Virus record (IMG/VR): IMGVR_UViG_3300033182_000487
Coordinates: 1 to 64,000 of that record
Source: a virus
Length of the DNA: 64,000 bases
Direction: 5' to 3' (one strand)
Part shown: positions 6,921-59,603 of the stretch, piece by piece
How positions within the stretch are numbered: position 1 is the first letter of the stretch
Layout of the letters: each line of letters starts with the position of its first letter
Program-made: the position numbers and the translations under genes
The notes under the pieces: model-generated
The model's database searches: none
Seen by the model: only the letters and a program-made list of their open reading frames with translations
What the model was told of the DNA's origin: nothing

Positions 6921-7715
6921 CTACGCAGCCACGGTGTCGAGGATGCTGGCGACCACCGTGGGGTCCACGGTGATGCCCGCGTCGTCGCTCGCGGTCACAG
7001 CGTCCGCGCCCAGGTTGAGCACGAAGTCCGTGCCCGGCTCCAGGGCGTAGGAGACGTAGCGGCGGCTGGGGAGGAGGCGGGTGATGACCCGCTTCGCCAC
7101 GGCCTTGGCACCAGACTTGCTCTGGGGGCGCGGGTACTGCGCGGCCTCGATGACCTTGCGGCCCACGCGGAGGCCCTGGACGTAGATGGTGCCAGGAGCC
7201 GAGGCGGGCTTGATGCTGGGGTCAGCAGGGCCGACGTAGACGCGGTAGCCCTTGAGGGCCTTGCCGTCCACGACCAGGGGCTCGTAGACGTGATCCGTGG
7301 TGCTGGAGTTGGTGCCAGCGATGCTCTTGGCCGTGCTGGCGATCATGTCGGCCAGCGCGGCGTCGAAGTCGGCGCGGGTCACAGCGACCTGCGTGGCCTT
7401 CGCGCCACGGCCCGACCAGGCCATGTGGCCCTCGGCGACCATGGCGTCGAGATCGGCACCCGTGAGGGCGTCGAGGATCACGGCATCGCGCTGCTTGAGC
7501 GCGGTGTAGGACCGGCCAGCGACGAAGGTGTCGCGGACGGTGTCGTTGCCCATCTGCACCTTGAGGCCGCCCCGCTTTTCGCCGGGGGCGAGGCGGGTGA
7601 CGCCCTTGAGGGTGGTGACGACGGACATGATGGACGCGCACTGCGCGGAGCGCGAGCCAGCGATGGCCTGCGCGAGGGTGGTGGACTCGGTGGAAGCGTT
7701 GGTCTTGATGGTCAT
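6921..7715 (-). CDS. Hypothetical protein in the type C island
   Basis: A 264-residue soluble protein, no family recognised. Ser/Thr-rich at the N-terminus, then mixed alpha/beta, with a basic segment SGAKAVAKRVITRLLPSRRY near residues 202-220 that might contact nucleic acid. Its ATG follows the island's characteristic leader, a GCCCC-loop-GGGGC hairpin placed directly against the ribosome site CAACGGAG. A type C element lies about 75 bases upstream. It is the last unit of the leftward half of the island, so it is probably part of the same functional group as the AAA+ ATPase and VWA genes. Confidence 0.6.
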   Translation of the reverse strand: MTIKTNASTESTTLAQAIAGSRSAQCASIMSVVTTLKGVTRLAPGEKRGGLKVQMGNDTVRDTFVAGRSYTALKQRDAVILDALTGADLDAMVAEGHMAWSGRGAKATQVAVTRADFDAALADMIASTAKSIAGTNSSTTDHVYEPLVVDGKALKGYRVYVGPADPSIKPASAPGTIYVQGLRVGRKVIEAAQYPRPQSKSGAKAVAKRVITRLLPSRRYVSYALEPGTDFVLNLGADAVTASDDAGITVDPTVVASILDTVAA

Positions 7716-7789
7716 GCGAATCTCCGTTGGCCCCTTGCTGGGGCACTGGGTTGATGGAGTGTGGGAGTGAGCGGGTCAGGAGCGACCCT

Positions 7790-7826
7790 CTCGTAGTAGG
7801 TACGGGAGCCGGGCATGGCTCCAACC
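7790..7826 (-). promoter_or_regulatory. Type C 37-nt element
   Basis: The minus strand begins GGTTGGAGC and ends CCGTACCTACTACGAG. TTGGAG and TACCTA are exactly 16 bases apart. The internal GGAGCC/GGCTCC inverted repeat (arms six bases) could be an operator. It precedes the gene starting at 7715. Confidence 0.7.
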
Positions 7827-7839
7827 AGCAGGGCCGAAA

Positions 7840-7899
7840 AAAACCGAATCAGTTTGGTTTGGTTGGCTGCGCTGGTGAGCGGGGCAGCATCGCCCCCTC
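7840..7899 (-). ncRNA. Possible short RNA between two type C elements
   Basis: The element at 7899-7935 has no gene after it. About 50 bases downstream on the minus strand comes AAACC-10 nt-GGTTTTTTT, a weak terminator-like hairpin with seven T, and then the next type C element. This arrangement could give a roughly 60-nt RNA. The alternative is a pair of tandem promoters for the 7715 gene. Confidence 0.25.
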
Positions 7900-7935
7900 T
7901 CACAGTAGGTACGGGAGCCGGATGCTGCTCCAACC
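7899..7935 (-). promoter_or_regulatory. Type C 37-nt element, orphan copy
   Basis: Same layout as the other six copies (GGTTGGAGC, then CCGTACCTACT, 16-base spacing), but no open reading frame separates it from the copy at 7790-7826. It is preceded by a hairpin with ten-base arms (CCAGGGAATC) around a T-rich loop, probably the terminator of the gene ending at 8147. Confidence 0.65.
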
Positions 7936-8146
7936 AGGGAATCCGAAAAAAGTTTCAGATTCCCTGGGGATGCGCTGCTGGTGCGCGTTCACGCGCTACC
8001 GAAGCAGCCGGGATGGGCAGATCACGACGTCAGGACAGGGGTGGTGGGGTCGAAAGTAGACGCGGTGGAACCTCCGTTGGCCCAGAGAAATCGGGGCACA
8101 GGATGAAGCCCCCCGGCGCGTAGCCGGGGGGCGGGGTGGGGTGGGA

Positions 8147-8638
8147 TCACGGGAGTCCGGTCGGACTCCAGCAGGTGTCAGGCTTGAAGCCCACGCGAGG
8201 CGTAGGCTCGTCCAGAGTGAGGTACTGGAGCACCTCCGCAGCGTTGTCGCGCTGCTCCAGGAGGTCGGCGATGTCCGGGCGGCTTCGGACCGTCGTGACG
8301 GTCGTGAAGTACACGTCGAAGTCGGCACCGAGGGCCTCGCGGGCCTTCGTCCAGTCCGTGTCCTTGCGGGCCTCGTAGCGTTGCTCGGGGAACGTGACGG
8401 ACACACGCCCGCCAGGGACGGTGTAGCCGACGTGGTGCCCCTCGCCGCGCTCGGTGCGGGCAAGGTCACGGATCATCGCCTTGAGCGGCTCCAGAGCCGC
8501 CTGAGCCTCCTTGATGTGGCGAGCCAGATCAACGGCGACTTCGGACAGCGACTCGGCGCTGCCCCCGACGTGTCGGAGCCGGGTGGCGTCTGTGAGCAAC
8601 TGCTGGAACGGGGTCAGGTCAGTGTGGGTGATGGTCAT
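8147..8638 (-). CDS. Hypothetical protein (163 aa)
   Basis: The N-terminal half is mainly helical (DLARHIKEAQAALEPLKAMI). The middle has a strand-rich GYTVPGGRVSVTFPEQRYEA, and the C-terminus ends in a polar tail. I do not recognise the family; the helical half plus small beta region is loosely like phage Gp157-type proteins. ATG 8638 is used because a TTGGAG site and a GCGGC/GCCGC hairpin lie just upstream, the island's usual leader. No type C element precedes it, so it is probably transcribed with the gene starting at 9568. Confidence 0.6.
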   Translation of the reverse strand: MTITHTDLTPFQQLLTDATRLRHVGGSAESLSEVAVDLARHIKEAQAALEPLKAMIRDLARTERGEGHHVGYTVPGGRVSVTFPEQRYEARKDTDWTKAREALGADFDVYFTTVTTVRSRPDIADLLEQRDNAAEVLQYLTLDEPTPRVGFKPDTCWSPTGLP

Positions 8639-8728
8639 GGTTGTCTCCAATGGCGGCAGGGCCGCACAGGTAACCATGGAGGGCGCGGCAACCCGCTGCC
8701 CCCCACGGTGGGTGGGGGGGTCAGGGGT

Positions 8729-9568
8729 TTAGAGGGCCTCGTAGCACTCGACGTGGAACACGCCGCCGCCATCCTCGGCCTCACGGAAGGCCGCGAGGGT
8801 GCCGCCTTCGATGGTCTTGCCGCAGGACGCACAGGGGCAGGCGAAGGGCACAGCGACGGTCTTGACGCCAGCCTTGGCCTGCTGGGTGGGCACGGGCACC
8901 TCGTCCACGACGGGAGCGGGAGCCGCAGCCGCAGCCAGATCGGCCTCGGTCTTCGCGTCGAGCGCCGCAGCGACCTCGGCGAAGTCGGCCATGCCAGCCT
9001 GCTGGCACAAGCCAGCGAGCGGACAGCCGTTGCACTGGTCGGAGCGGGACGACCACGCGCCGAAGCACCGGGTCTGCTCCGCAGCCATGCGCCGCAGACC
9101 AGCGTCCGCAGCCTCGTAGGCGGCGCTGTTCACAGCCCCGGTCTGGGGAGTGAAGGACACGCCGTCCTTCGTGACCACGTTGAGGGTCACAGGAGCGGCC
9201 ACAGGAGCCTTCACAGGCTCGGAGCGGGTCTGGACAGGCATCGGGGCCTCCACGGGCGCAGGAGCCGCCACAGGGGCGTCCACGGCCCCGGAGAGGGCGT
9301 AGTAGCCACGGCGCGGGCAGCGGATGCTGCCCTCGGCCTTCAACTTGCCAGCGGCAAGCGTCACGGCCCGCTGGCCACGCGGGTAGGGCTTGCCACGCTT
9401 GGTCATGGTGCCCCAGGTGTCCCAGCCAGGGAAGCCGGGCTGGGCCTCGCACCATGCGAGGACCGAAGCGAAGCGCACCTCGCGCCCGAGGGGGCCGAGG
9501 TTAGAGAGAGCAGCGATGACGACTGGCTTCCAGGCGTCGGCGTTGTGGGTAGAGGGGAAAGCGAACAT
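8729..9568 (-). CDS. Zinc-binding protein with C-terminal LIM-like fingers
   Basis: The product has 279 residues. The N-terminal 80 residues resemble a winged-helix or similar small domain (AWCEAQPGFPGWDTWGTMTK). An Ala/Pro/Val-rich linker follows (about 95-130). A cysteine cluster (CFGAW...CNGCPLAGLC, near 175-195) and a C-terminal CASCGKTIEGG...FHVEC arrangement, C-x2-C then H-x2-C, are consistent with two zinc sites, the last LIM-like. It sits between a type C element and the 8147-8638 gene. It may be an adaptor for the AAA+/VWA proteins next door; that is inference only. Confidence 0.6.
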   Translation of the reverse strand: MFAFPSTHNADAWKPVVIAALSNLGPLGREVRFASVLAWCEAQPGFPGWDTWGTMTKRGKPYPRGQRAVTLAAGKLKAEGSIRCPRRGYYALSGAVDAPVAAPAPVEAPMPVQTRSEPVKAPVAAPVTLNVVTKDGVSFTPQTGAVNSAAYEAADAGLRRMAAEQTRCFGAWSSRSDQCNGCPLAGLCQQAGMADFAEVAAALDAKTEADLAAAAAPAPVVDEVPVPTQQAKAGVKTVAVPFACPCASCGKTIEGGTLAAFREAEDGGGVFHVECYEAL

Positions 9569-9635
9569 GGGTGTCTCCGTTGGCCCCTGTGGGGCACATT
9601 GAGTGAGTGAATGGGAGTGTGGGAGGCTCTTGCCT

Positions 9636-9672
9636 CCCGTAGTAGGTACGGGAACCGAAAGGCGCTCCAACC
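9636..9672 (-). promoter_or_regulatory. Type C 37-nt element
   Basis: The minus strand starts GGTTGGAGC and ends CCGTACCTACTACGGG. The TTGGAG-to-TACCTA spacing is 16 bases. It lies 68 bases before the ATG at 9568. Confidence 0.7.
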
Positions 9673-9703
9673 GCCGAGGTCGAAAAAACCTCGGCGGTTG
9701 GAG
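9665..9703 (-). terminator. Perfect 16-bp hairpin with a U-rich loop fused to a type C element
   Basis: Arms CTCCAACCGCCGAGGT (9665-9680) and their exact complement (9688-9703) surround a seven-base loop. The hairpin begins nine bases after the stop codon of the AAA+ gene. Its downstream arm is also the GGTTGGAG half of the next type C element, so termination and the next promoter-like site share bases. There is no T-run after the stem, so it is not a textbook intrinsic terminator. Confidence 0.55.
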
Positions 9704-9711
9704 CCGGAGGA

Positions 9712-10911
9712 CTACAAGTCCTCGTCGGCGAACACGCCACCAGTGACGTGCGCGTCGATGAGGGACTTGGCGATCAGCCGGTTGTCCGGGTCGAGCCGGT
9801 CCAGCCACGCGCGGAAGCCCTTCTTGAGCAGACCCTTCGGCGGGGTGCCGTTGGCCAGCCACAGGAGGTCATCGCACTCGGCGAGGATCTCGCAGAGACC
9901 CCGGTGGGTGAGATCAGCCTCCAGGTCCATGTCGGCCTCGCCCTTGATGGCGAGCCGGATCGCGCCGCAGGCCGCGCCCAACTCGTCGAACAGGGCCGGA
10001 GCCTTGCTGGCGAGGTCAGCGAACTTGCCACGCAGGATCGCGCCCTCGTCCTTCCAGTCGAGGTACTCGGCCTCCACGAAGCGGCCCATGCGGTCAAGCA
10101 GGGACGCATCCATGGCACGGCTGGACATGCGACCGTCCACGTCGCCCGTCCCGCACGAGTTCGCCGTGAAGGCGAAGCGGGTGCCGGGGAACAGGGTGTG
10201 GACCCGACCCGTGGGGCCGACGAGCCGCTTGGAGGTGGTGTCCAGCATGAGCCGGAACTCCTCCAACTGCTCGGGGGTGCCCCGGTCAACGTCACTGAAA
10301 CAGATCAGCGCCGGGTAACGCTTCCCGTCGGTGCCCTCGATGCCGTGAACCAGCGCATCCCAGAGGATGCCGTAGGACCACGAGGTGCCCTGGGAGTCGA
10401 TCTCGCGGCTGTAAAACCACCGCTTGACGTCGGTCCCGCTGGTGAAGGTGTAGATCAGGCTCGGGGTGCGCGTGTCGGCGCAGTAGGCCGAGATCGCCGC
10501 GTCCTTGCCCGTGCCGCTCGGACCCCAGTAAAAGACGGGGTGCCCACGGCGCAGCGCCAGGACGACGCGACGAGCGCGCTCCAGCGCCTTGCCCGTGGAC
10601 GGCCACTGGTAGCCGTCGGGCTTGGGCAGGCACTGACCCTCCGCGATGTTGACGTTGACGGGCGCGGCAACGCCCATCATGTCATGGGAGAGGGTGGCCA
10701 GCGCAGGAGCGGGCTGGCGACGACGGCCCTTGCGCTTGTCCATGACGCCCTGGATCAGGGCGTGGGACACGGTCGCAGCACCGGGGTGCTGGGCGAGGTA
10801 GTCGGCCACCGAGAGGCCGTGGGCCTCGCGCAGGTGGTCGAGGAGGGAGTGGCTCTTGTGGCCACAGATCGCGCAGACGGCGCGGTCATCAACAAGGTGA
10901 AGTGCAGGCAT
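9712..10911 (-). CDS. CobS/MoxR-like AAA+ ATPase
   Basis: A 399-residue protein. Residues 13-45 form a MucR/Ros-like zinc finger (CAICGH...HLREAHGLSVADYLAQHPGA). The AAA+ core has Walker A GPSGTGKD (130-137), Walker B ALICFSDVD (201-209), a sensor-1 FTANS (248-252) and an arginine-finger segment LLDRMGR (271-277). This is the CobS branch of MoxR ATPases, which remodel partners together with VWA proteins. The neighbouring VWA and HEAWH genes strongly support that role here. The name does not imply cobalamin synthesis; phages carry CobS homologues without that pathway. ATG 10911 is set by the GCCCC/GGGGC leader and CGGAG. Confidence 0.85.
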   Translation of the reverse strand: MPALHLVDDRAVCAICGHKSHSLLDHLREAHGLSVADYLAQHPGAATVSHALIQGVMDKRKGRRRQPAPALATLSHDMMGVAAPVNVNIAEGQCLPKPDGYQWPSTGKALERARRVVLALRRGHPVFYWGPSGTGKDAAISAYCADTRTPSLIYTFTSGTDVKRWFYSREIDSQGTSWSYGILWDALVHGIEGTDGKRYPALICFSDVDRGTPEQLEEFRLMLDTTSKRLVGPTGRVHTLFPGTRFAFTANSCGTGDVDGRMSSRAMDASLLDRMGRFVEAEYLDWKDEGAILRGKFADLASKAPALFDELGAACGAIRLAIKGEADMDLEADLTHRGLCEILAECDDLLWLANGTPPKGLLKKGFRAWLDRLDPDNRLIAKSLIDAHVTGGVFADEDL

Positions 10912-10979
10912 GGTGTCTCCGTTGGCCCCTTGCTGGGGCACTGTGAGTGGAAGGGAATGAGAGAGGGTCAGGAGCGACC

Positions 10980-11016
10980 CTCGTAGTAGGTACGGAAGCC
11001 CGGTCAGGCTCCAACC
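10980..11016 (-). promoter_or_regulatory. Type C 37-nt element
   Basis: The minus strand starts GGTTGGAGC and ends CCGTACCTACTACGAG. It begins about 18 bases after the SWIM gene stop, and CCCGGTC/GACCGGG arms flank its TTGGAG core. It serves the AAA+ gene at 10911. Confidence 0.7.
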
Positions 11017-11033
11017 AGACCGGGCGAACTTTT

Positions 11034-11417
11034 TCAGTCGAACATGGCGAGCATCGCCTTGAGCAGGCGGTACTCGTCGCGACGGGCAGCGATGTACCGC
11101 TCGCCGACGGCGATGATGTGCTTGCACACCATGCCGCGATCCTGGTGGTCGCGGCAGGTGCAGGACATGCGGCGGACACGGCCACGGACGGGGCCTTCGA
11201 TGACCACGTTGTAGACGGTGTCGCTGGTCGCGCTCTCCACGGTCGCCGTGATGGCTCCCGTGCTCTTGCTCTCGACCGCCTTGACGACGGCGACGGTCGC
11301 CGCGCGCTGGGCACGGCGGGACTCGGCACCGTCCAACAGGATGCGGACGGCCTTGCCGCGCTCGATCAGCGTGGCCTGCCGAGACTCGATCTCGGCGATG
11401 GTGATTGCCTTGGACAT
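11034..11417 (-). CDS. SWIM zinc-finger protein
   Basis: This 127-residue protein carries the SWIM signature C-x-C...C-x-H at Cys86, Cys88, Cys98 and His100 (SCTCRDHQDRGMVCKH), with the usual helix after it (IIAVGERYIAARRDEY). SWIM domains mediate DNA or protein contacts. In many bacteria a SWIM protein is encoded beside a MoxR ATPase and a VWA protein (the E. coli yehLMPQ type of cluster), and that trio is reproduced here. The N-terminal 60 residues are helical. The ATG follows CCGGAGG and a type C element. Confidence 0.85.
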   Translation of the reverse strand: MSKAITIAEIESRQATLIERGKAVRILLDGAESRRAQRAATVAVVKAVESKSTGAITATVESATSDTVYNVVIEGPVRGRVRRMSCTCRDHQDRGMVCKHIIAVGERYIAARRDEYRLLKAMLAMFD

Positions 11418-11444
11418 AGGATGCCTCCGGGGTTTGATGTTGGG

Positions 11445-11481
11445 TTCATAGGGGGTACGGAAGCCCGCCGACGCTCCAACC
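11445..11481 (-). promoter_or_regulatory. Type C 37-nt element
   Basis: The most divergent copy: GGTTGGAGC is intact, but the distal half reads CCGTACCCCCTATGAA. The 16-base spacing is kept. It precedes the SWIM gene and lies in the roughly 400-bp divergent interval between leftward and rightward units. Confidence 0.6.
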
Positions 11482-11726
11482 AGCCGGGCCAGATTATTTC
11501 GGCCCATGGGGTGTCTTACTCGATGATCCCACGTCGCCGACCCCCTGCCCGCCATCCCCTCTACTGCGTAGAGGGGATGGCGGATTTCTCGAAATCCTTG
11601 TTGCGGGGCTGGGGTCACTGGGATCACGGCGCTGGGGTCGCTGTTGCACCAGGTGAGAGATCGCTCCCCCACGATCCCGCGCCAACGCCCGCTTTCGCGC
11701 TTTTTCGGGCTTTTTTGGGGCTGGGT

Positions 11727-11763
11727 GGTTGGAGCGTGGTTGGGTTCCCGTATCTCCAATGTG
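11727..11763 (+). promoter_or_regulatory. Type C 37-nt element
   Basis: The plus strand starts GGTTGGAGC and continues through CCCGTATCTCCAATGTG, with the same 16-base spacing. Two T-runs (CTTTTTC and CTTTTTTGG) lie just upstream. It precedes the gene at 11834. Confidence 0.65.
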
Positions 11764-11833
11764 GGGGCACACCTGCCCCCCCTCCCTTCCCTTCACACTC
11801 AACGTGCCGCGACGAGCGGCCACTGGAGACACC

Positions 11834-12937
11834 ATGAGCAAGCAAACCGCCCCACAGGGCACCCTGACCTTGGATGGTCGCAAGTGGATCGGAGCCGCGC
11901 AGGCTTCGGTCAACTCGATCCTCGGCAACGACGCCCCGAAGGTCTCGTCGCGAGGCCAGCAGTTTTTCAATATCAATAGGTGGACTGCTCGGACCCTGTT
12001 CGCGAAGTTGGCCGAGTCGATCAAGTACGGCAACGTGATGGACGAGTGGACCGTCCGCAACGCCATCGCCCTCGCCAACGGCACCAGTGTGCCGAACCGG
12101 GAGATCGTCATCGCGGCGGTCCCTGACCGCATCCCAACGTGGCTGGCCCGGTCCAGCGTCGGGGGCCGCTACCACGAGGCGTGGCACGACCTGTACTCGT
12201 GTACCCGTGACCTCGACTTCGACGAGGTCTTCGGTCCGCTGATGCAGCGGTGGCCGATGCTCGCTGACTGGAGCCCGTTCGTCGGTGCCGTGCTCACCTG
12301 GGGCAACGTCATCGAAGACATCCGCATCGAGCGGCATGGCTGCAAGGAGCATCCCGGCTCCCAGGACAAGATGCAAGACTTGCAGGACTTGATCCTCAAG
12401 TTGGAGGCCGACGGTCGCACGGCTGCGGAGCACAAGGGCCTGCCCACGAACGACGACATGGCTGTGGTCATGGGCGCGTTCCGTGATCTCGGACTCGGCT
12501 ACGAGACCGAGGCCCAGCAGGCTGCGCTCGCTGGCTACCAGCAGCGGTCGCCCGCTGGCTGGCGTCTGGTCACCCAGGGTGCCCTTAAGCCCCTCCTGGA
12601 CCGTGCCATCACCATGGGTCGGGACGATGATCTCGGTCACTGGTGGCTCGCCATGGAGGTCGTGGCTGTGCTCGCGACCCTCGGCCAGCAGCCGCAGGGA
12701 CGTCCCCAGCCTCCGCAGGACGGCGGCGGCGAGGGCCAGCCCGGTCAGCCCCAGCCCGACGGTGAGGGCGGTGAGGGCGGCGACAGTAAGCCTCCCCGGT
12801 TCCCCCTGTTCAAGGTGGGCGACCGTGCGAAGGCGAAGCGCGGCCCCCATCGCGGCAAGATCGTGGAGGTCACGTTCGCTGGTCCTCCCGACGAGGACGG
12901 GCGGCAGACCCTCAAGTTCGCCCCGGTCCTCGACTGA
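11834..12937 (+). CDS. CobT-type protein with HEAWH metallopeptidase-like motif and KOW domain
   Basis: A 367-residue protein. HEAWH at 114-118 and NVIEDIRIE at 158-166 give an HExxH plus downstream glutamate pattern, as in zincin-like metallopeptidases and in the N-terminal metallopeptidase-like domain that accompanies VWA domains (DUF2201_N type). A Pro/Gly/Gln-rich linker (about 280-320) leads to a KOW-like end (FKVGDRAKAKRGPHRGKIVEV). In CobT-type systems this part and the VWA part are often one chain; here they are consecutive genes. ATG 11834 follows GGAGACACC. Peptidase activity is inferred from the motif only. Confidence 0.7.
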   Translation: MSKQTAPQGTLTLDGRKWIGAAQASVNSILGNDAPKVSSRGQQFFNINRWTARTLFAKLAESIKYGNVMDEWTVRNAIALANGTSVPNREIVIAAVPDRIPTWLARSSVGGRYHEAWHDLYSCTRDLDFDEVFGPLMQRWPMLADWSPFVGAVLTWGNVIEDIRIERHGCKEHPGSQDKMQDLQDLILKLEADGRTAAEHKGLPTNDDMAVVMGAFRDLGLGYETEAQQAALAGYQQRSPAGWRLVTQGALKPLLDRAITMGRDDDLGHWWLAMEVVAVLATLGQQPQGRPQPPQDGGGEGQPGQPQPDGEGGEGGDSKPPRFPLFKVGDRAKAKRGPHRGKIVEVTFAGPPDEDGRQTLKFAPVLD

Positions 12938-12960
12938 TCGCGACTTTTTCGGAGCCGGGT

Positions 12961-12997
12961 GGTTGGAGCGCCACCCGGCTCCCGTATCTACTACGAG
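12961..12997 (+). promoter_or_regulatory. Type C 37-nt element inside a 12-bp hairpin
   Basis: GGTTGGAGC to TATCTACTACGAG, 16-base spacing. The TTGGAGCG core is the loop of a perfect hairpin with arms GGAGCCGGGTGG and CCACCCGGCTCC, preceded by CTTTTTC. It separates the CobT-type gene from the VWA gene. Confidence 0.7.
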
Positions 12998-13063
12998 GGG
13001 CACCTTCGCCCCCACTCCCTTCCCATTCACATCCCGTGCCCCACAGGGGGCCAAGGAGACACC

Positions 13064-14647
13064 ATGCTTACTTCAATCCTTGAGCGTCTCGGCGCTGCCA
13101 TCTTCGGCAGCAACGAAGACCTCTCCCCCATGCCCCAGCCCAGCGACGACCAGTCCGGCGGCAAGGGCGACAGCAACGACGACACCGACACCGAGCAGGA
13201 CGACGAGTCCGGCGAGGGTGGCGAGTCGGGCGAGTCCGGCGACGACGAGCAGGACGGCGACAGCGCCGACGGTGAGTCCGGCCAGGACGGCGACGACGGC
13301 GACGAGTCCGACGGTTCCGGTGACGGTTCCGAGGACGGCGACGACGGCGAAGGCTCCGACGACGACGGCAGCGACGGTGGCGACACCGACGGTGACCAGC
13401 CCGGAGACTCCGACGGCGGCGAGTCCGGCGGCGGCGATTCCGACGGCGAGTCGGGCGAGTCCGACGCCGACGGTGGCGAGCAGACCGACGACGTGGACCC
13501 GAACAGCGACAAGACCGCTGGCGGCCACGACGACCAGGGCGAGTTCGCCGAGGCCCTGATCGACGGGCTCAAGGCTCCCCAGGATCACATCCTGGACGCT
13601 GCGGACGCTCTCCAGCAGGCCACCGACTCCTGCCGCACGGAGGACGACGTCCAGCCCGGTGAGCAGGTCTGGCGTCCCTACGACCCAGAGGACGACCTGA
13701 TCGCGAAGCCGAAGGGCGACAAGGTCCAGTCCGCGATCCTCCACAAGGAGGCGAAGGTCATCACCGCTGCCCTGCGGACGCAGTTTCGGCGGCGCTTCCT
13801 CGCTGCCCGGAACCCCCGTGAGCAGCACGGCGTCCGGCGCGGCAAGGATCTGTCCGAGCGGCGTCTCGTCGAGTCCTTCGTCGAGATCAAGTCCGGTGTG
13901 CGGCCCAGCCGTCCCGACTACAAGATCACCGCCCAGCAGGACGTGAGCCTGTGCCTCGGTGTGGTCATCGACCAGTCCGGGTCTATGCACGGTCGCGAGC
14001 AGCACGCTGCTGCGGTGTCCGCGCTCGCCATGGCTGAGGCGTTCGATAGCCTCAACGCTCCGGTGATGGTCTGTGGTCCCCGGAACGGTGGCCGTGGTGT
14101 CCGTGGTGGTCGTCAAGGCTACTTGACGGACTACTACCACGAGGACAGCCACACGGGTCAGACGGGCTACGGCGTGGGCACCGGCTCGCTGCAATACCAC
14201 CGTCACGAGCGCATCGTGCTGGACGTCTTCAAGGACTGGGACGAGTCCTTCAAGCAGGTCAAGCACCGTTTCAGCAGTGTCCAGGCCACTGGCTCGACGC
14301 CCCTGTCGGACGGCATCCAGTTCGCCCTCCAGGAGTTGTCCAACCGCCCCGAGCGTCACCGGATCATCGTGGTCCTGACCGACGGCGAGCCGGACCACCG
14401 TGCTGTGGTGAAGCGCCAGATCCGGCTGGCCCGCGAGGCCGGGATCACCGTGATCGGTGTCGGCATCAGCGGTGCCGAGTACGCGGTGCCCGCCCTGTTC
14501 GTTGACCACCACATCGTGGTCAACGATCTCCAGGAGTTGCCGAAGCGCATGATCGAGGTCGTGGGTGCCATCGTGTTCCCCCGCACTGCGAAGCGCGCGG
14601 CCCTGGACGGTCGTGTGGGCTCCAAGCGAGCCCGCCGCCGGGCGTAG
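13064..14647 (+). CDS. VWA-domain protein with a long acidic linker (CobT C-terminal type)
   Basis: A 527-residue protein. Residues about 25-150 are almost only Asp, Gly, Ser and Glu, strongly acidic and surely disordered. The C-terminal half is a von Willebrand A domain with a complete MIDAS: D-x-S-x-S as DQSGSM from Asp303, the threonine of STPLSDG, and the aspartate of VVLTDGEPD. Such proteins are the metal-dependent adaptors of MoxR/CobS ATPases. The basic stretch FRRRFLAARNPREQHGVRRGKDLSERR lies before the VWA fold. The start has the GCCCC/GGGGGC leader and AAGGAG. Confidence 0.85.
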   Translation: MLTSILERLGAAIFGSNEDLSPMPQPSDDQSGGKGDSNDDTDTEQDDESGEGGESGESGDDEQDGDSADGESGQDGDDGDESDGSGDGSEDGDDGEGSDDDGSDGGDTDGDQPGDSDGGESGGGDSDGESGESDADGGEQTDDVDPNSDKTAGGHDDQGEFAEALIDGLKAPQDHILDAADALQQATDSCRTEDDVQPGEQVWRPYDPEDDLIAKPKGDKVQSAILHKEAKVITAALRTQFRRRFLAARNPREQHGVRRGKDLSERRLVESFVEIKSGVRPSRPDYKITAQQDVSLCLGVVIDQSGSMHGREQHAAAVSALAMAEAFDSLNAPVMVCGPRNGGRGVRGGRQGYLTDYYHEDSHTGQTGYGVGTGSLQYHRHERIVLDVFKDWDESFKQVKHRFSSVQATGSTPLSDGIQFALQELSNRPERHRIIVVLTDGEPDHRAVVKRQIRLAREAGITVIGVGISGAEYAVPALFVDHHIVVNDLQELPKRMIEVVGAIVFPRTAKRAALDGRVGSKRARRRA

Positions 14648-14720
14648 CCCTTCCCCGCCCCTGGGGGCCCTCACGGGCTCCTGGGGGCTTTCCCCTTCCA
14701 CCCTTGACCAAGGAGACCCC

Positions 14721-14921
14721 ATGGACGTCAATGACATGGGCGACGGGCGCATCGCGCTCACCGGGACCAAAGACGAGTTGGACGCCGCGACCCTTTGGGC
14801 GCGGGCCGTGCTCCACATGGCCTTCGGTCCCGAGGCGGGCGAGGAACGCTTCCGTGCCGTTCCGGCACTGGCTGTGCTCCTCGCCTACCGGGAACACGTC
14901 GCCAACGCCCCCGAGTGTTGA
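14721..14921 (+). CDS. Small acidic protein, last gene of the island
   Basis: Sixty-six residues, helical, no recognised family. ATG 14721 follows CCAAGGAGACCCC, matching the island's style of ribosome site. It is probably co-transcribed with the VWA gene, since no type C element lies between, and is followed by a strong terminator. Confidence 0.6.
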   Translation: MDVNDMGDGRIALTGTKDELDAATLWARAVLHMAFGPEAGEERFRAVPALAVLLAYREHVANAPEC

Positions 14922-19761: not shown

Positions 19762-20345
19762 GGACCGAAGGCTGACCTGACCCCACGACCGAACCGGGGC
19801 TGTGCCAGACCACGCATGTAGTGGACCGTCCGGGACTTCGCCTCGGTGAGTTTGTCCCACTGGTCCTCGGCGTTTTGCTTCATGCCTTCGTACTTGCTGG
19901 ACTTCTCGATGTCCAAAGAGATGCCGCCGATGGAGTATGTGTTGTGGGCGACGATGCCGTTGGCGAGGACGAAGTTCTCTGGACCCGGCACACAGAGATC
20001 GTAGGAGATGGTGAGGGGTTCACCCTGCTCAACCTCGACGGTGCATCCCCCGAGGGTTCCCTGCTGGACTTCTGCGATGGCGTCACCGGGTCGCAGGTCT
20101 TCCGCCCGAACGGGCTTGATCCCAGACCCGTGCAGATGGAACAGGGAGTGATCACAGGTGGTGGTGACCGACCGACCGTCTGGGGTCGTGCATGTGGTGG
20201 AGGGTCTGTCGCCAGTGCTGTGTTGCATCACATCTTTGATGACATGAAGGCCGACTTCTCCTGTGTCGGGGTCAACAGACCGAGTGCGGAGTTCCCCGGC
20301 GAGGAAGGCATCACGGATGGCTTGGCGGGTCTGTGCGTCGATCAT
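19719..20345 (-). CDS. Split-intein C-fragment fused to the C-terminal part of a phage protein
   Basis: Of 208 residues, 1-135 are a C-terminal intein fragment with block B TTTCDHSLF (61-69), block F YDLCVPGPENFVLANG and the terminal AHN at 133-135. Residues 136-208 are the C-extein, beginning Thr+1 (TYSIGGISLDIEKSSKYEG) and ending with an RG-rich tail. Trans-splicing with the 21334-22107 product would rebuild a 298-residue protein. The ATG overlaps the preceding stop (ATGA), so the nuclease and this half are coupled. The extein resembles phage head-tail structural proteins, but that is weakly supported. Confidence 0.85.
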   Translation of the reverse strand: MIDAQTRQAIRDAFLAGELRTRSVDPDTGEVGLHVIKDVMQHSTGDRPSTTCTTPDGRSVTTTCDHSLFHLHGSGIKPVRAEDLRPGDAIAEVQQGTLGGCTVEVEQGEPLTISYDLCVPGPENFVLANGIVAHNTYSIGGISLDIEKSSKYEGMKQNAEDQWDKLTEAKSRTVHYMRGLAQPRFGRGVRSAFGPYVGRGVLSPRSFV

Positions 20346-21334
20346 GCTGCACTCCTATGGGCTTGTTCTACGGCGGCGGCGATCAAGCCCAGCGCGGTTT
20401 CGGGGTTCTCTCGGACCATGTGTCCGGGGAGTCGCAGCAGCGTCCACCCTGCTGCTTTGAGGCAGGCGTCCTTGCGCTTGTCATTTGCCAAGGTCGAGGG
20501 CACTCCAGTGTGCCCACAATCTGAACACCCATGCCAATAGCAGCCGTCGATCTCGACAGCGATTCGCAGTTCGGCGTGTGCTTCGTCCACCTCAAACGGG
20601 CCGACCTTTCCTTCGGTGGTGAATCCTGTGAATCCGGCGTTCACCATGCGGTCTTTGAATCGGAGGTGCATCTTCGATGTCTTGTTCATCGCGGCGCGTG
20701 CCTTTGCCATCGAAGTGTCCGCGATGTGGGAGCGTGCGTTTGCTGCCCCGGCAAGGGAGGCTTCTCGATTGTCTCGGTGCCACCCCCCCACCGCTTCTCT
20801 CTGCCCCCCAGACTCCCACCGGGCTTTGGTCTCCCGAGAAACAGCCTCACGGCGCTTCTGCGAGCGGTTCATTCCGACCAACCGTTCGACAAGCACTTCT
20901 CGGTAGCCTGTTTCCATGAGGCGGCGGGATGCCGCAGCGATCTGTTGGCGGGTGCGCTCCCCTTCCGGGGTCTGAAACCGAGCCTTGAGGGTTTCGGATT
21001 GCCGTGCCTTCTGGTCTTCCGTCTTGGCCTTGTTCCGCGACACCACCCCACAGAGCAGTGGTGCGTCGGGGTGTTTCTCGGAGTATTCGTTCAGGGACAG
21101 TCCCGAACACGCCCGCAAGTGCTTGGTTGTGATCTGACCCGCCCACTGACCGCACTCTCGGCACACGATGTAGTGATCCCCCTCGGACAACCCCTCGACT
21201 GCTTCCTGTGCGTACTTCGGACGGCGGGGGGTGCAGCCCTCCAGAACAGAAAGGGCACCGATCTCCGTGAGGGTCTTGATGTGCCGAGTGTTGAACCCGT
21301 ACAGAACTGAAATCTGGCGGATAGACAAGTTCAT
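20342..21334 (-). CDS. Vsr-like homing endonuclease between the split-intein halves
   Basis: A 330-residue protein. The C-terminal 90 residues have the very-short-patch-repair fold signature: EVD (249-251), EIDGCYWHGCSDC (262-274), then NDKRKDACLKAAGWTLLRL. The N-terminus has a helix-turn-helix-like segment and a MucR-type zinc finger (CRECGQ...HLRACSGLSLNEYSEKHPDA, near 59-92) very like that of the CobS-type ATPase. The middle carries repeated basic helices, as in DNA-binding modules of homing enzymes. Position and family match the free-standing nucleases of fractured genes. The true start is the ATG of the TGATG overlap; a TTG just upstream is not used. Confidence 0.85.
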   Translation of the reverse strand: MNLSIRQISVLYGFNTRHIKTLTEIGALSVLEGCTPRRPKYAQEAVEGLSEGDHYIVCRECGQWAGQITTKHLRACSGLSLNEYSEKHPDAPLLCGVVSRNKAKTEDQKARQSETLKARFQTPEGERTRQQIAAASRRLMETGYREVLVERLVGMNRSQKRREAVSRETKARWESGGQREAVGGWHRDNREASLAGAANARSHIADTSMAKARAAMNKTSKMHLRFKDRMVNAGFTGFTTEGKVGPFEVDEAHAELRIAVEIDGCYWHGCSDCGHTGVPSTLANDKRKDACLKAAGWTLLRLPGHMVRENPETALGLIAAAVEQAHRSAA

Positions 21335-22107
21335 CAAGTCTCCGTGCAGATGGAGTGGAGTTCTTCGATGGGGAGCGTGACCTCACGCCCATCCGGCAGA
21401 TGGACGGTGACTTCGGTTTCGGGGGCGACCGAAAACTCGTTCGCGATCCAGTTGTAGACGAGCGCCTGAGCGGCGTTGACGAGTGCTCCCCACAGCAGCG
21501 CCGCCTTCCATGACGGCTTCTGGTGGCACAGCATGTCGATGGTCTTGATCTCCTCGGTCGAGGGCGGGTGCATGTTCCACTTCCAGAGGGCGATCTCCAG
21601 GTACTCGGCGAACTCCTCGTCGGTCCAGATGTAGCCGAACACCTGGTTGAAGCAGCCCACGGTGCCTTCGCCTTCGGGAGGCATGAAGCGGTAGTTGCGG
21701 TCAGGGTTGTTGTCCCTGGTCAGGAAGCGCATCTTGCGGATCAGGTCCGTCATGCAGTCGGAGTAGGGGCTGGCCTCGGTCTCGACGGCGCTGGAGACGA
21801 CGCCGAACTCCTGCACGGCCCCTTCCTCGGCGGTCGTAGCCGTCTCTCGGAAGCGCCAACGGATGCGGTAGTCGCCCGGAGCCGCGCTGGAGGGCACCTG
21901 GAGGCTGGCGTAGTACTCGCCTACCGTGGGGTTCACCGGGGTCCGGGAGGCGGACCCGATCAGCACCTCGGCGGTCGTGGTGGGGTCCACATAGTAGATG
22001 GCGTAGGAGATGCTGAAAGCGTTGGTGGGGTTCCCGTCGGCGTTGGACAGGTAGATGTCCAGGTCGCCGCGACCGAGCACCTGCCCCTGCGTGAATACGA
22101 CGGCCAT
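21334..22107 (-). CDS. N-terminal part of a phage protein fused to a short split-intein N-fragment
   Basis: A 257-residue protein. Residues 1-225 are the N-extein: a beta-rich region (1-105) then helical (FAEYLEIALWKWNMHPPSTEEIKT). Residues 226-257 (SVAPETEVTVHLPDGREVTL and on to a stop) fit an intein N-terminus with serine at position 1 and a PIEEL block A. The fragment is only about 32 residues, so this is an atypically split intein. Splicing would join ANEF to TYSIGG. The ATG follows AGGAGG. The stop is in TGATG overlap with the nuclease. Confidence 0.8.
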   Translation of the reverse strand: MAVVFTQGQVLGRGDLDIYLSNADGNPTNAFSISYAIYYVDPTTTAEVLIGSASRTPVNPTVGEYYASLQVPSSAAPGDYRIRWRFRETATTAEEGAVQEFGVVSSAVETEASPYSDCMTDLIRKMRFLTRDNNPDRNYRFMPPEGEGTVGCFNQVFGYIWTDEEFAEYLEIALWKWNMHPPSTEEIKTIDMLCHQKPSWKAALLWGALVNAAQALVYNWIANEFSVAPETEVTVHLPDGREVTLPIEELHSICTET

Positions 22108-27649: not shown

Positions 27650-28047
27650 TGTCCCTCCAGATAGATAAGCGCGGCGCGAAGCACCGAGGGGTCTTCCCCC
27701 AGCAGGCCGAGAGCGGTGTTGCACTTCCGGCAGAGGAGACCGCGAATCTCCCCTGTGGTGTGGCAGTGGTCTACGTCCAGCCTTCCATTGAGGCTGTCTT
27801 CGGACGGTCGGCGGCAGATGGCGCACGCCCCCGCCTGTGAAGCGAGGCGTTGGTGGTAGTCCTTCTTGGTCACCCCGTACCGCTCGCGGAGATGCCCCCA
27901 ACGACGGTCGCGCTTGTAGTATTCGCGCTTGTAGTCCTTACAGAAGGCTTCACGACCACCCCCTGCTTTCAGTGAGCGTCGGTAGTAGGCGGTTTCGGAG
28001 TCCTTCGATTCCCCACACTTCGTGCAGGTCTTCGTCAACCCTGGCAT
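27646..28047 (-). CDS. HNH/endonuclease VII-family nuclease between the nrd genes
   Basis: 133 residues. The signature CAIC (75-78), LDVDHCHTTGEIRGLLCRKCN (90-110) and a C-terminal helix ending YLEGQ match the recombination endonuclease VII family: two Cys pairs and DHCH. An N-terminal Cys pair (CTKC) may hold a second zinc. Placement between two conserved nrd genes, coupled at both ends, is what is expected of a free-standing homing endonuclease. The ATG with GAGGAGG eight bases before is preferred to a GTG nine bases upstream. Confidence 0.85.
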   Translation of the reverse strand: MPGLTKTCTKCGESKDSETAYYRRSLKAGGGREAFCKDYKREYYKRDRRWGHLRERYGVTKKDYHQRLASQAGACAICRRPSEDSLNGRLDVDHCHTTGEIRGLLCRKCNTALGLLGEDPSVLRAALIYLEGQ

Positions 28048-31034
28048 GACAGACACTCCTCCTCTGCGACGTAGTCCTTGAGCGCGACCCGTTCGATCTT
28101 CGCCGACACCTTGTCAGGGTCTACCCCGGCGGTGGTGCGGAGGTAGTAGAGGCCCTTGAGGCCCTCCTTCCATGCCTTGATGTGGGTCATCAGGACGTAG
28201 TGGCGGTCACTTCCGGCGGGGAAGAACAGGTTCACCGACTGACCCTGGCAGATGAACGGCTGGCGGTCGGCAGCGTGGCCGACGACCCACCGTTGGTCGA
28301 GTTCAAAGGCGGTCTTGTAGACGTCCTTCTCCCACTCGTCGAGACAGTCGAGGTGCTGGACTGACCCTGCGTTCGTCGTGATGCTGGACCAGACGCGCTC
28401 GCGCTCCGTGGGGTCGGTGATCTTCTTCGCCAGGAGACGCTCCAACTCGGGGTTCCGCACCTGGTGTGATCCCGCACGGGTCCGGTGCGTGTAGGCGTTG
28501 GACTTCCAGGGCTCGATGGACGGGCTGATGTTCAACAGGATGCTGCTGTTGGCGTTGGGGGCCACGGCGAGCAGGTGCGAGTTGCGGCGTCCGGTCCCCT
28601 CGCCGTCCAGGTACTCACCCTTCTCGGCGGCCAGGGCCTCCGTCGCAGCCACAGCCTCGGACTGGATGTGCTGGAAGATCTGGAGGTTCACGCCCTTTGC
28701 CAGGGCCGACTCCCAGGGGAGCCTCCTCTGCTGGAGGTAGGCGTGGAAGCCCATCGCTCCCAGACCGAGGCTGCGCTCACGGGTGGCCGAGTAGACGGCC
28801 CGGTGCAGTTCGTCGGGGGCGTGGTCGATGAACACCTGGAGCACGTTGTCGAGCAGCCGGATCAGATCACGCACCATCGGGGTGTCGCGCCACTCGTCGA
28901 ACTTCGCCAGGTTGACGCTGCTGAGACAGCAGACCGCCGTGCGGTCCTCGGACGTGGGGAGGTGGATCTCGTTGCAGTTGTGGGTGACCATCCCGTTGCA
29001 CACGAAGTGATGGTCTTCCGAATCAACATTCACGCAGAACACATCGTCCGTCCCCACGGCTTCGACGGACACGACTTCGGAGACCTTGCGTGAGTTGTTC
29101 CGGTACTTCCGCTTCGGGATCTTGACCCCCTTCCTCGTGAGGAATCCGGTGGCTTCCTCAAAGGCCAACGCATCGGTCTTGTTGCCGATGACGATGCGCC
29201 ATGCGTCCTTCACCTCGTAAGGGGCATGTGACCCCTTCCCGTCAGGAAGCATGACGGTGCCTGACTTACGGTGAAGATAGAGGCTGGCGCTCATGCCGAG
29301 ATTGCGGAGAATCAGAAGGATGTCGGAGAGGAAGTCTTTGTCGATGTTGGTCAGCGACAGGTAGACGGGAGCACCCTTCCCCCCTCCCACATTCACGGTG
29401 CCATCCGCGTAGAACAAGCCTCGGATGTACTGCCATTGAGTCGCTTCATCGGATGACCAGATCCAGTCTGGCACTGAACCCTTCACGAATCCCAACCCCG
29501 ACTTGTGGAATGTGCGGCTGGAAAGGCGGACCTTCCGCACATCAGAGCAACCCGTGTTCTGGTCGCGGAACCTCGCTGGGTCGCGAGGCCGTGACCCAAC
29601 AACATCCCCGGTTCCGTTCCGAACCTCGTAGGTGTCGCACCCGTACTTGTGGTGTACGCGGTCGAACCGTTCCTGAACTTCGGGAATGAGGTCGAAATCA
29701 GGCTCCCACAGGTCGATCATGTGCATGAGGGATGCTTCATGCTGGGTTCCGTCGGCTTGGTACAAGCCGAGCAAGAACGCCTCGTCTTCCATCGAAACCT
29801 GACCGAACAACCCCTTGTTCGTCTGGACATGAACGCGGTCACCGATGACGAGATCATCACACCGGACATCCCCCCTGTCTGTCTTGACCTTGTGGTACTC
29901 CGTGACCGTGTGGGTCATGCCGTTCTTCAGCGTGATCCGAAAGACCGGAGCATCCTGCTCGACCAAGAGCATGGCCGAAGACTTCTGGGGCAGGTTGTTG
30001 TCGAACACGGTCAGATCATCACCTTGTTCGTACAGTTCCCTTGCTGTCAGCAGTCCCCGGTCGGTGACCACCCGCTGATGTCCCGCAACGCAGAGGTTCG
30101 ATCCGTTGATGCGAAGCCCCAAACGCTTCAACGTCTCGGGGAGTGCCCGGTTCGCGGCGTCGATGAAGTTGAGGTAGGGTTCGCCCGTGCGGCTGCGGAC
30201 CTCGATGATCCGCTGGAACAGGTCACGGGCAGGCATCGTGTCGCGGATGCTCCCGTCGGCGGGGTCCACGAGGTTCCATTCCTTGCCCTCGATGCACGCC
30301 TGCATGAAGTCGTCGGTGATGTTCAAGGCGTTGTGGAGATTGAGGCACTTCCGGTTGGGATCACCGCCCGTCGGGAGTCGCATCTGCAAGAACTCCAGGA
30401 TGTCGGGGTGCGAGACGTCGAGGTAGGCCGCGTAGTTGCCCTTCCGCGTCGTGCCTTGTCGGTACGCGGTCATGTCGGCATCGACGGTCTTGAGAAACGG
30501 GATCGGGCCGGGGGACTTGTCCGACACCGAACGCACGGAAGACCAGTGACCTCCGACGCCACCGCCCTTGACCGCACACCACCGGAGTTCCGCCGTGTGG
30601 GAGATCAAGCCCTCCAGGGTGTCCGGGACGTACTGCAAGAAGCAGGAGATGGGCAGCGACTTCCACTTCTCGCCGGGCACGGGAGCGTTGCTCAGGACCG
30701 GGCTGGCGAACATGAACCAGCCCTTGCTGGCGTAGTCGTAGATGCGTTGAGCGAAGCCCGTGTCACCCTCGCAGTAGGCGACGGCGGCACGGGCGAAGGC
30801 TTCCTGTGGGGACTTCTCGTCGGGGCGCATGTAGTACGCCTTGAGGAGGTCCAATGCGAACGGGCTGAGGTCTTCATCTCGGTCCAGAGAGATCTGGATG
30901 CCGTGGCAAGAGGAACGGGGCTGTGATGGGGTCAACGCCTTCTCCTGTCGATCAGTGCTAAGGAGGAGCGATCTCGGAATCTCGTGCCAGGTCGTGTTCA
31001 TTTCGCTGTCAGACAGGGGCACAAGTTCAGCCAT
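28035..31034 (-). CDS. nrdA: Ribonucleotide reductase alpha subunit with an intein
   Basis: The precursor has 999 residues; 627 remain after splicing. Extein landmarks: the PISCFL cysteine and the joined NLCNEI, where Cys is the catalytic thiyl-radical residue (E. coli Cys439) and Glu is its acid partner, then CCLSSVNL. The C-terminal ECLSC is the thioredoxin-accepting pair. At 627 residues it is shorter than E. coli NrdA and shows no N-terminal ATP-cone, so overall activity may lack the usual dATP switch. ATG 31034 follows TTTGAGGA; a TTG 15 bases upstream is less likely. Confidence 0.93.
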   Translation of the reverse strand: MAELVPLSDSEMNTTWHEIPRSLLLSTDRQEKALTPSQPRSSCHGIQISLDRDEDLSPFALDLLKAYYMRPDEKSPQEAFARAAVAYCEGDTGFAQRIYDYASKGWFMFASPVLSNAPVPGEKWKSLPISCFLQYVPDTLEGLISHTAELRWCAVKGGGVGGHWSSVRSVSDKSPGPIPFLKTVDADMTAYRQGTTRKGNYAAYLDVSHPDILEFLQMRLPTGGDPNRKCLNLHNALNITDDFMQACIEGKEWNLVDPADGSIRDTMPARDLFQRIIEVRSRTGEPYLNFIDAANRALPETLKRLGLRINGSNLCVAGHQRVVTDRGLLTARELYEQGDDLTVFDNNLPQKSSAMLLVEQDAPVFRITLKNGMTHTVTEYHKVKTDRGDVRCDDLVIGDRVHVQTNKGLFGQVSMEDEAFLLGLYQADGTQHEASLMHMIDLWEPDFDLIPEVQERFDRVHHKYGCDTYEVRNGTGDVVGSRPRDPARFRDQNTGCSDVRKVRLSSRTFHKSGLGFVKGSVPDWIWSSDEATQWQYIRGLFYADGTVNVGGGKGAPVYLSLTNIDKDFLSDILLILRNLGMSASLYLHRKSGTVMLPDGKGSHAPYEVKDAWRIVIGNKTDALAFEEATGFLTRKGVKIPKRKYRNNSRKVSEVVSVEAVGTDDVFCVNVDSEDHHFVCNGMVTHNCNEIHLPTSEDRTAVCCLSSVNLAKFDEWRDTPMVRDLIRLLDNVLQVFIDHAPDELHRAVYSATRERSLGLGAMGFHAYLQQRRLPWESALAKGVNLQIFQHIQSEAVAATEALAAEKGEYLDGEGTGRRNSHLLAVAPNANSSILLNISPSIEPWKSNAYTHRTRAGSHQVRNPELERLLAKKITDPTERERVWSSITTNAGSVQHLDCLDEWEKDVYKTAFELDQRWVVGHAADRQPFICQGQSVNLFFPAGSDRHYVLMTHIKAWKEGLKGLYYLRTTAGVDPDKVSAKIERVALKDYVAEEECLSCQG
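28977..30092 (-). mobile_element. LAGLIDADG intein inside nrdA
   Basis: 372 residues, from CVAGHQRVVTDRG (block A) to the terminal MVTHN before Cys+1. Block B is THTVTEYHKV. Two LAGLIDADG-like motifs (FLLGLYQADG and YIRGLFYADG) are about 110 residues apart, so a full double-motif endonuclease is encoded. Splicing uses the catalytic Cys of reductase as the +1 nucleophile, so an unspliced protein must be inactive. Confidence 0.95.
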
Positions 31035-31137
31035 CGTGGGATTCCTCAAAGATTAGTGTTTTTGCTGGCGGCAGGCGGACGAGAGCAGCCATCGAGCCTT
31101 TGATGAAGCCTCTCTGGACCCGCCTCTATAGGGCTGG

Positions 31138-59119: not shown

Positions 59120-59603
59120 GCGAGCCGCCGAGGAGGGGATCCTTGAAGAAATCCTCCGTGATCACGCGGACCTGGACTACGACCACCCGATCTTCATCCC
59201 GTACCTGACCTACACCTACCAGGGGAAGCGGACCCTGCTCTCCGTCATGGAGGGCTACGTCTTCGTGGCGTCTGGCTTCGACGACGCCAGCCGCGACCAC
59301 TTTGCCCGATCCCCCTACATCAAGAAGATCCTCACCCGAGGGGCCAACCACTACTCCCCCTACGAGACCGTATCTCAGGCTTCGGTGGACTCTTTGCGCC
59401 ACCGACTACGCGAACTGATGGCGGTCGAGATCCGGGAGGGGATGGAGGTCCGTATTGTGGATGGGCCACTCAGTGGTATAAGTGGGAGCGTGGTGGGGGT
59501 GTTTGATACACATGCGACCCTCCTCGTAGAGATGCGGTCCATACGCGCCATCCAATATCTTCCGTGCTTCCTCCTACGACCCGTGAGTGACGAGCATGAG
59601 TAA
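59064..59603 (+). CDS. NusG-like transcription factor
   Basis: 179 residues. A GTG start with GGAGG upstream. Residues about 8-92 look like an NGN domain (WVVLELSHHGERAAEEGILE; VMEGYVFVASGF), and 124-150 is a KOW motif (REGMEVRIVDGPLSGISGSV). Phage NusG homologues alter elongation or termination by host RNA polymerase. Directly coupled to a sigma-like gene (ATG within the last codons), which supports a combined transcription-takeover role. Confidence 0.75.
   Translation: MDARDQTTWVVLELSHHGERAAEEGILEEILRDHADLDYDHPIFIPYLTYTYQGKRTLLSVMEGYVFVASGFDDASRDHFARSPYIKKILTRGANHYSPYETVSQASVDSLRHRLRELMAVEIREGMEVRIVDGPLSGISGSVVGVFDTHATLLVEMRSIRAIQYLPCFLLRPVSDEHE

Follow-up and report, generated by a model that had tools for sequence, protein, structure and literature searches.

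The stretch of DNA analysed here (hereafter the window) comprises bases 1-64000 of a 113,148-base IMG/VR virus record, IMGVR_UViG_3300033182_000487 (designated G000). Positions 6921-14921 of the window hold an island of eight genes that we consider likely to encode a phage-borne protein-remodelling machine of the MoxR type, built on the CobS/CobT plan and equipped with a metallopeptidase-like subunit and several partners. The genes for U1, U2, LIM3, the ATPase and the SWIM protein lie on the minus strand, and those for the HEAWH protein, the VWA protein and U8 on the plus strand (Table 1). Gene calls in this GC-rich sequence are based on open reading frames (ORFs) and homology, and all eight coordinates and translations agree with those of an earlier reading made from the sequence alone (the original prediction). 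Good family matches exist for the ATPase and the VWA protein; the SWIM, KOW and MucR-finger assignments fall below the curated cut-offs but are supported by conservation.

The strongest evidence that these genes may form a functional unit is their linkage, which is conserved among virus contigs despite shuffled gene order. In a 205 kb contig (G001), the order and orientation of all eight genes are preserved and identities are roughly 63-90%, and a 39 kb contig (G007) packs counterparts of the eight into about 12.3 kb, with order and orientation differing. In the 297 kb G006, HEAWH, VWA, ATPase, LIM3 and U2 follow one another on one strand, with U8 nearby and SWIM 90 kb away. The ATPase is accompanied by LIM3, U2 and CobT in most cases among G003, G009, G010 and L085-L099 (up to 618 kb), and the core of ATPase, LIM3, U2 and a split or fused CobT recurs in most of about 20 virus contigs. 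ATPase and CobT occur without adjacent LIM3 and U2 in G005, L087 and L097, while G004 has a solitary HEAWH gene and no detectable ATPase. The pairing of the ATPase with a VWA protein whose metal-ion-dependent adhesion site (MIDAS) is intact is likewise a genomic one. The original prediction had proposed looking for co-occurrence in other phages and had named single scattering, or a lack of homology, as grounds for giving it up; co-occurrence was found and neither of the latter was, the distant SWIM gene of G006 and the lone HEAWH gene of G004 being the departures. Neither the gene set nor a relative or host ancestor of the ATPase was found in 84,980 bacterial and archaeal (GTDB) genomes, as judged from two pattern scans of their contigs with ATPase profiles, which capture close matches only, and tblastn searches of isolated phages, with the HEAWH protein or a large-phage ATPase as query, found none either; the CobS/CobT relatives that turned up were all distant.

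The ATPase has a MoxR-type AAA+ core (Pfam AAA_5, 2.1e-6, 28.2 bits against a cut-off of 22; phrog_249, 7e-12), and its matches among solved structures include CobS (PDB 9ujv, 5e-8) and Midasin (3e-9). Its N-terminal finger matches ROS_MUCR at 0.0019, under the cut-off of that family. The canonical catalytic motifs are absent: in all members of an ingroup of 21 ATPases (20 of them below 95% identity; minimum 30%, mean 43%), GK(T/S) of Walker A has become GKD and DE of Walker B has become (S/T)D. Five outgroup proteins, which a tree splits off with a support of 0.998, lack the change; four have T and DE, and the nearest, G011, has S and DD. The register of Walker B was fixed by an ungapped alignment of the phage FSDVDRG with FDEYDAG of the solved CobS and by the conserved D and G that follow, and a reading of the replaced pair as DV instead of SD was rejected on these grounds.

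In P-loop NTPases, Mg2+ is served by the hydroxyl of Walker A as well as by the Asp of Walker B, and the simplest reading of the phage sequences is therefore that the two side chains were exchanged in this lineage, which would leave a rearranged but still working Mg-ATP site. No clear precedent for such a swapped pair emerged from a literature search of partial coverage. A different explanation is a catalytically dead or regulatory AAA+ ring that binds ATP without hydrolysing it and gives the VWA and metallopeptidase parts a scaffold. The replacement of Walker A T/S and of both D and E in Walker B would suit such a role, but drift would be expected of inactive sites, whereas here the changes stay specific and reciprocal even at 30% identity, the Glu position still holds an acid, and the sensor 1 Asn, Arg finger and sensor 2 Arg are all retained; we regard a dead ring as quite improbable. 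The likelihoods attached to this and the following alternatives overlap, the target of the machine and the activity of its ring being separate questions. The fullest version of our proposal, to which we would give about even chances, is an AAA+ lineage in which the Mg2+-holding side chains have traded places (Asp for Thr/Ser in Walker A, Ser/Thr for Asp in Walker B, and Asp for the catalytic Glu) and whose still active motor drives a dedicated phage machine with LIM3 and U2 as new constant subunits and a separable CobT-type peptidase.

The VWA protein matches Pfam VWA (2e-9), phrog_1576 (5e-38) and CobT_C (PF11775; 1e-7, 31.9 bits against a cut-off of 21), and its nearest chelatase-type solved relative is cobaltochelatase CobT (PDB 9uka). 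Its MIDAS motifs (DxSGSM, ATGxTP and TDGxP) are intact and kept in most relatives, and residues 28-150 contain 53 D/E and 2 K/R. On sequence and model evidence, the HEAWH protein appears to be the N-lobe of CobT, because it has HExxH and a downstream N..ED...ER pattern in common with the CobT of phage CRP-810 (itself matching PF06213 at 2e-15), because profiles and structures match, and because it is fused to the VWA protein in relatives. Profile comparison with phage CobT N-lobes by hhalign gave an E-value of 1.4e-5 over 66 columns, and a structure model with a predicted local distance difference test (pLDDT) score of 80 matched a phage CobT (2.2e-6) and a protein of the virus HHTV-2 (3.6e-4) in BFVD. 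Only E-values and probabilities of the fold tool were used, its template-modelling scores and root-mean-square deviations being poor even for the best viral matches. The HEAWH protein (P0008) has no direct match to PF06213, which a fused relative reaches only at 0.46, and the NVIEDIRIER motif varies in three large-phage homologues. HEAWH and VWA form one chain of about 710-1000 residues in G002, G005, G011 and about ten others, and two genes in G000, G001, G006, G007, G009, G010, L088 and L093. The KOW match of the HEAWH protein is weak (12.2 bits against a cut-off of 22.3), but all nine stand-alone HEAWH proteins, among them the solitary one of G004, terminate in a KOW-like tail, which is missing from two aligned fused relatives. 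In some CobT/HEAWH relatives, the linker holds a zinc-ribbon-like CxxC...CxxC insert (L021:9968-12316 and L052:7333-8682).

CobS and CobT pairs are widespread in tailed viruses, and the cobT gene of HHTV-2 is split into two ORFs (PMC8651126). The clusters of CRP-810, Mae-Yong1326-1, HHTV-2 and cyanophages likewise place a CobS-like AAA+ protein beside a CobT-like N-lobe and VWA domain with an acidic linker (PMC8651126, PMC11288001, PMC9503304). The original prediction had called the split CobT and the acidic linker unusual; HHTV-2 provides a precedent for the former, and fused phage CobT proteins share the latter. In contrast to the island ATPase, the aligned sequences of CRP-810, Mae-Yong, S-CRM01 and V1VFA-S keep the GKT and DE Walker motifs, and next to the cobST genes of CRP-810 and Mae-Yong neither a LIM3 nor a U2 homologue was detected. 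A role in vitamin B12 supply has been proposed for such genes in haloarchaeal viruses and cyanophages (PMC8651126), and the island genes could accordingly be auxiliary metabolic genes whose CobS/CobT borrows host CobN to raise that supply. Cobaltochelatase CobS (9ujv) and CobT (9uka) are indeed the nearest chelatase-type solved relatives of the ATPase and VWA proteins, and cobST clusters are common in tailed viruses. However, CobN was not found in G000, G001, G002, G003 or two named cobST phages (PF02514 in none of 6 records, with controls positive in 5 of 14; the records may lack parts, and the host could have a CobN), the ATPase scores 14.3 bits against a cut-off of 558.55 on the CobS equivalog TIGR01650, the phage has a class I ribonucleotide reductase with a small subunit, an enzyme that works without B12, Walker A and B are unlike those of CobS, and cobalt chelation is not known to involve zinc, KOW or SWIM partners. 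The missing CobN, the poor score for CobS, the class I reductase and the changed Walker motifs, none decisive alone, make a cobaltochelatase role for the island unlikely, and B12 supply through host CobN very much so.

Closer in architecture is a pair from group 2.2 jumbo phages, ASV44728 and ASV44729, in which a MoxR ATPase accompanies a vWA protein fused to an N-terminal metallopeptidase domain (PMC7824862). The passages of that account considered here, with which we compare by description only, mention no accessory genes, split form, promoter regulon or Walker change, and the jumbo-phage pair could belong to the clade of the island ATPase. CobS/CobT pairs, MoxR-VWA-metallopeptidase pairs and split CobT thus being published (PMC8651126, PMC7824862), the island is a variant of known systems, and the original description of it as 'undescribed' does not hold, whereas its picture of a MoxR/CobS-type AAA+ protein, VWA partner, HEAWH and SWIM as one conserved, co-regulated unit does. 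What is new here relative to the published systems is the pair of changed Walker motifs; these, the constant partners LIM3 and U2 and the ECF-like promoter layout described below were not noted in the original prediction.

The jumbo-phage pair has been proposed to act as a virion-assembly chaperone and processing protease and, in the same account, is compared to an archaeal-virus MoxR-vWA system required for tail assembly (PMC7824862). The shared three-part architecture, this comparison and the phage-only distribution of the island all fit a function in virion assembly. Against it, with mild weight, the terminase and portal genes (82-87 kb of G000) and a head-protease-like ORF (about 102-104 kb) lie far from the island and lack its promoter-like element, and the genes that carry the element in G006 include no recognised virion gene; overall, we deem virion assembly rather unlikely.

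This element, also part of the original prediction, reads GGTTGGAGC-N11-YCCGTA in G000, where all seven copies in the 113,148 bp lie before island genes at fixed spacing; reversed-pattern controls gave 0. U2 and U8 have no element of their own. A second copy before U1 lies about 109 bases upstream of the first, with no recognised gene in between. G001 carries ten copies of GTTAAAAC-N11-YCCGTAAG, five of them preceding island genes, and G009 six copies of a variant, all within the island region. In G006, GGTTCAAC-N13-TCCGTATA occurs 18 times; the genes that it precedes include those for HEAWH, VWA, ATPase and LIM3 as well as the displaced SWIM gene. The remaining G006 genes with the element encode mostly small unknown proteins, together with a metallophosphatase (at 118707) and a WGR-like protein (L038, G006:113889 onwards; a weak match at 0.0016). 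From GGTT or xGTT to CGTA, the spacing is 18, 18, 19 and 18 bases in G000, G001, G006 and G009. Promoters of extracytoplasmic function (ECF) sigma factors of the sigma-W type contain CGTA, and in its sequence layout the putative phage promoter resembles this class. The window encodes a sigma-70 region 4-like protein at 59587-60237 (+) (26.3 bits against a cut-off of 25.7), which is conserved in G002, G006, G010 and G011. An ECF-sigma-like protein of about 302-357 residues with a weak sigma region 2 match is found at G001:87521, G003:13334, G006:107910, G009:79954 and G007:13148-14221, and no homologue of it was seen in the 113 kb of G000. We infer that these sigma-like factors may act on the element.

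ECF-like promoters of its own and co-regulation with small unknown genes could also point to a machine for host takeover or counter-defence, whose task would be to remove or cleave a nucleoprotein or immune complex of the host, and the MucR-like finger, KOW-like tail and SWIM motif suggest nucleic-acid-associated targets. Among PADLOC models of anti-phage defence, the core parts have no match, and only the SWIM protein is hit (SWIM_XIII, 2e-4; PDC-S62, 0.0017). This explanation, one version of the remodelling machine that we favour, is possible but tentative, its probability being on the low side. A host-remodelling or anti-defence complex had also been suggested by the original prediction, as a possibility.

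The accessory proteins are less readily classified. The LIM-like protein has the motifs C..C...H..C and C-x10-C-x2-C-x5-C, the latter, four-Cys motif giving a weak match (E 0.62) to endonuclease III in its Cys-rich (Fe-S) stretch, and neither LIM3 nor U2 has a convincing family in Pfam, PHROG or the PDB. The SWIM protein contains CxC...CKH and scores 18.2 bits against a Pfam cut-off of 19.6. For U1, the AlphaFold model is poor (pLDDT 47), and its homologue in G005 lies about 12 kb from the ATPase.

Table 1. Genes, motifs and promoter-like elements of the island (positions in the window; aa, amino acids).
Feature	Position	Strand	Basis
U1, 264 aa	6921..7715	-	homologues near ATPase in G001, G007, G009, G010, L088
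Element before U1	7801..7826	-	pattern
Second element copy before U1	7910..7935	-	pattern
U2, 163 aa, C-terminal TPRVxF motif, constant partner of ATPase	8147..8638	-	follows LIM3 in most contigs
LIM3, 279 aa, conserved N-terminal region, C-x10-C-x2-C-x5-C motif, C-terminal CxxC...HxxC	8729..9568	-	alignment
LIM3 Cys4 motif CFGAWSSRSDQCNGCPLAGLC, residues 168-188	9005..9067	-	four Cys in most of 18 homologues examined
Element before LIM3	9647..9672	-	pattern
CobS-like MoxR/AAA_5 ATPase, 399 aa, N-terminal MucR-like finger	9712..10911	-	Pfam, PDB
Changed Walker B around FSDVDR, residues 203-210, SD in place of DE	10282..10305	-	S or T, then D, in 20/20
Changed Walker A GPSGTGKD, residues 130-137, D in place of T/S	10501..10524	-	D in 20/20 non-redundant homologues
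Element before ATPase	10991..11016	-	pattern
SWIM protein, 127 aa	11034..11417	-	Pfam SWIM 0.0017; motif invariant in homologues
Element before SWIM	11456..11481	-	pattern
Element before HEAWH	11727..11752	+	pattern
HEAWH/KOW protein, 367 aa, predicted split-off CobT N-lobe, metallopeptidase-like	11834..12937	+	profile and structure matches
HExxH motif, residues 114-118	12173..12187	+	H114, E115, H118 invariant in 7 homologues
NVIEDIRIER, residues 158-167, second conserved motif, candidate third-ligand site	12305..12334	+	core residues invariant in 7
Element before VWA	12961..12986	+	pattern
VWA protein, 527 aa, acidic N-terminal tail and CobT_C-like VWA	13064..14647	+	Pfam, PHROG
MIDAS DxSGS, residues 303-307	13970..13984	+	motif alignment
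U8, 66 aa	14721..14921	+	homologues in G001, G006, G007, G009, L089

Outside the island, G000 encodes UvsX (49% identical to its closest match in the phage collection, from an uncultured 485 kb phage), a RecD/Dda-like helicase, a clamp loader and the class I ribonucleotide reductase. Probable HNH/homing endonucleases encoded at 20342-21337 (-) of the window and at 76926-78437 (+) of G000 (L008:16926-18437) match the profile of the island ATPase, apparently through a common N-terminal finger region. The large subunit of the reductase (window 28035-31049, -) contains an insertion of about 400 residues that gives an endonuclease-like match and is probably an intein; similar signals are present at 25-1902 of the window and in L010:1640-4432.

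How such a machine might operate is suggested by NorQ-NorD, in which the VWA protein acts in a finger-in-pore mode and the linker between its N-lobe and VWA domain is stretched (PMC13036017). NorQ/NorD and CbbQ/CbbO resemble the island in pairing an AAA+ protein with a VWA partner, although the N-lobe and VWA domain of NorD form one chain and their island counterparts are separate proteins. As in these systems, the CobS-like protein would form an ATPase ring on whose pore the VWA protein would dock, and the HEAWH protein, as a separate CobT N-lobe, would be a metallopeptidase-like, probably zinc-dependent subunit whose KOW-like tail could plausibly substitute for the lost covalent linker. The linkage of LIM3 and U2 is constant and promoters are shared, which suggests that these two and, in a looser way, SWIM, U1 and U8 may be dedicated partners, probably adaptors for substrates or nucleic acids; the island genes would form one regulon transcribed from ECF-sigma-like promoters of their own. 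The most likely task of the machine would be to take apart, and possibly to cleave, a protein complex of host or phage, perhaps one bound to DNA or RNA; the machine is probably proteolytic. As the original prediction pointed out, E. coli clusters of the yehLMPQ type also combine MoxR, VWA and SWIM proteins, and a weakly matching WGR-like gene shares the element in G006; the island ATPase and VWA protein match CobS and CobT.

Several points weigh against this proposal. It rests on sequence and predicted structure, so that complex, activity and target are all predictions, and nucleic-acid targeting and timing are judged from domain types and promoter layout only. With two catalytic motifs that differ from those of active AAA+ proteins, the ring could be slow or inactive. 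The covalent linker that does work when stretched in NorQD is cut in the island proteins, and searches of PDB sequences and folds with the HEAWH protein gave no significant match to a solved structure. Finally, most of the relatives come from metagenomic contigs, and several of these are fragmentary.

The active sites of AAA+ proteins rank among the most conserved that biology has to offer, and a reciprocal change that became fixed at the Mg2+ site and persisted in about 20 divergent phages would amount to a natural experiment on ATP motors. LIM3 and U2 provide two constant partners for follow-up and the promoter type a further handle, and the island as a whole offers a testable way to tell a phage-specific machine from the many phage genes that are annotated as vitamin B12 genes.

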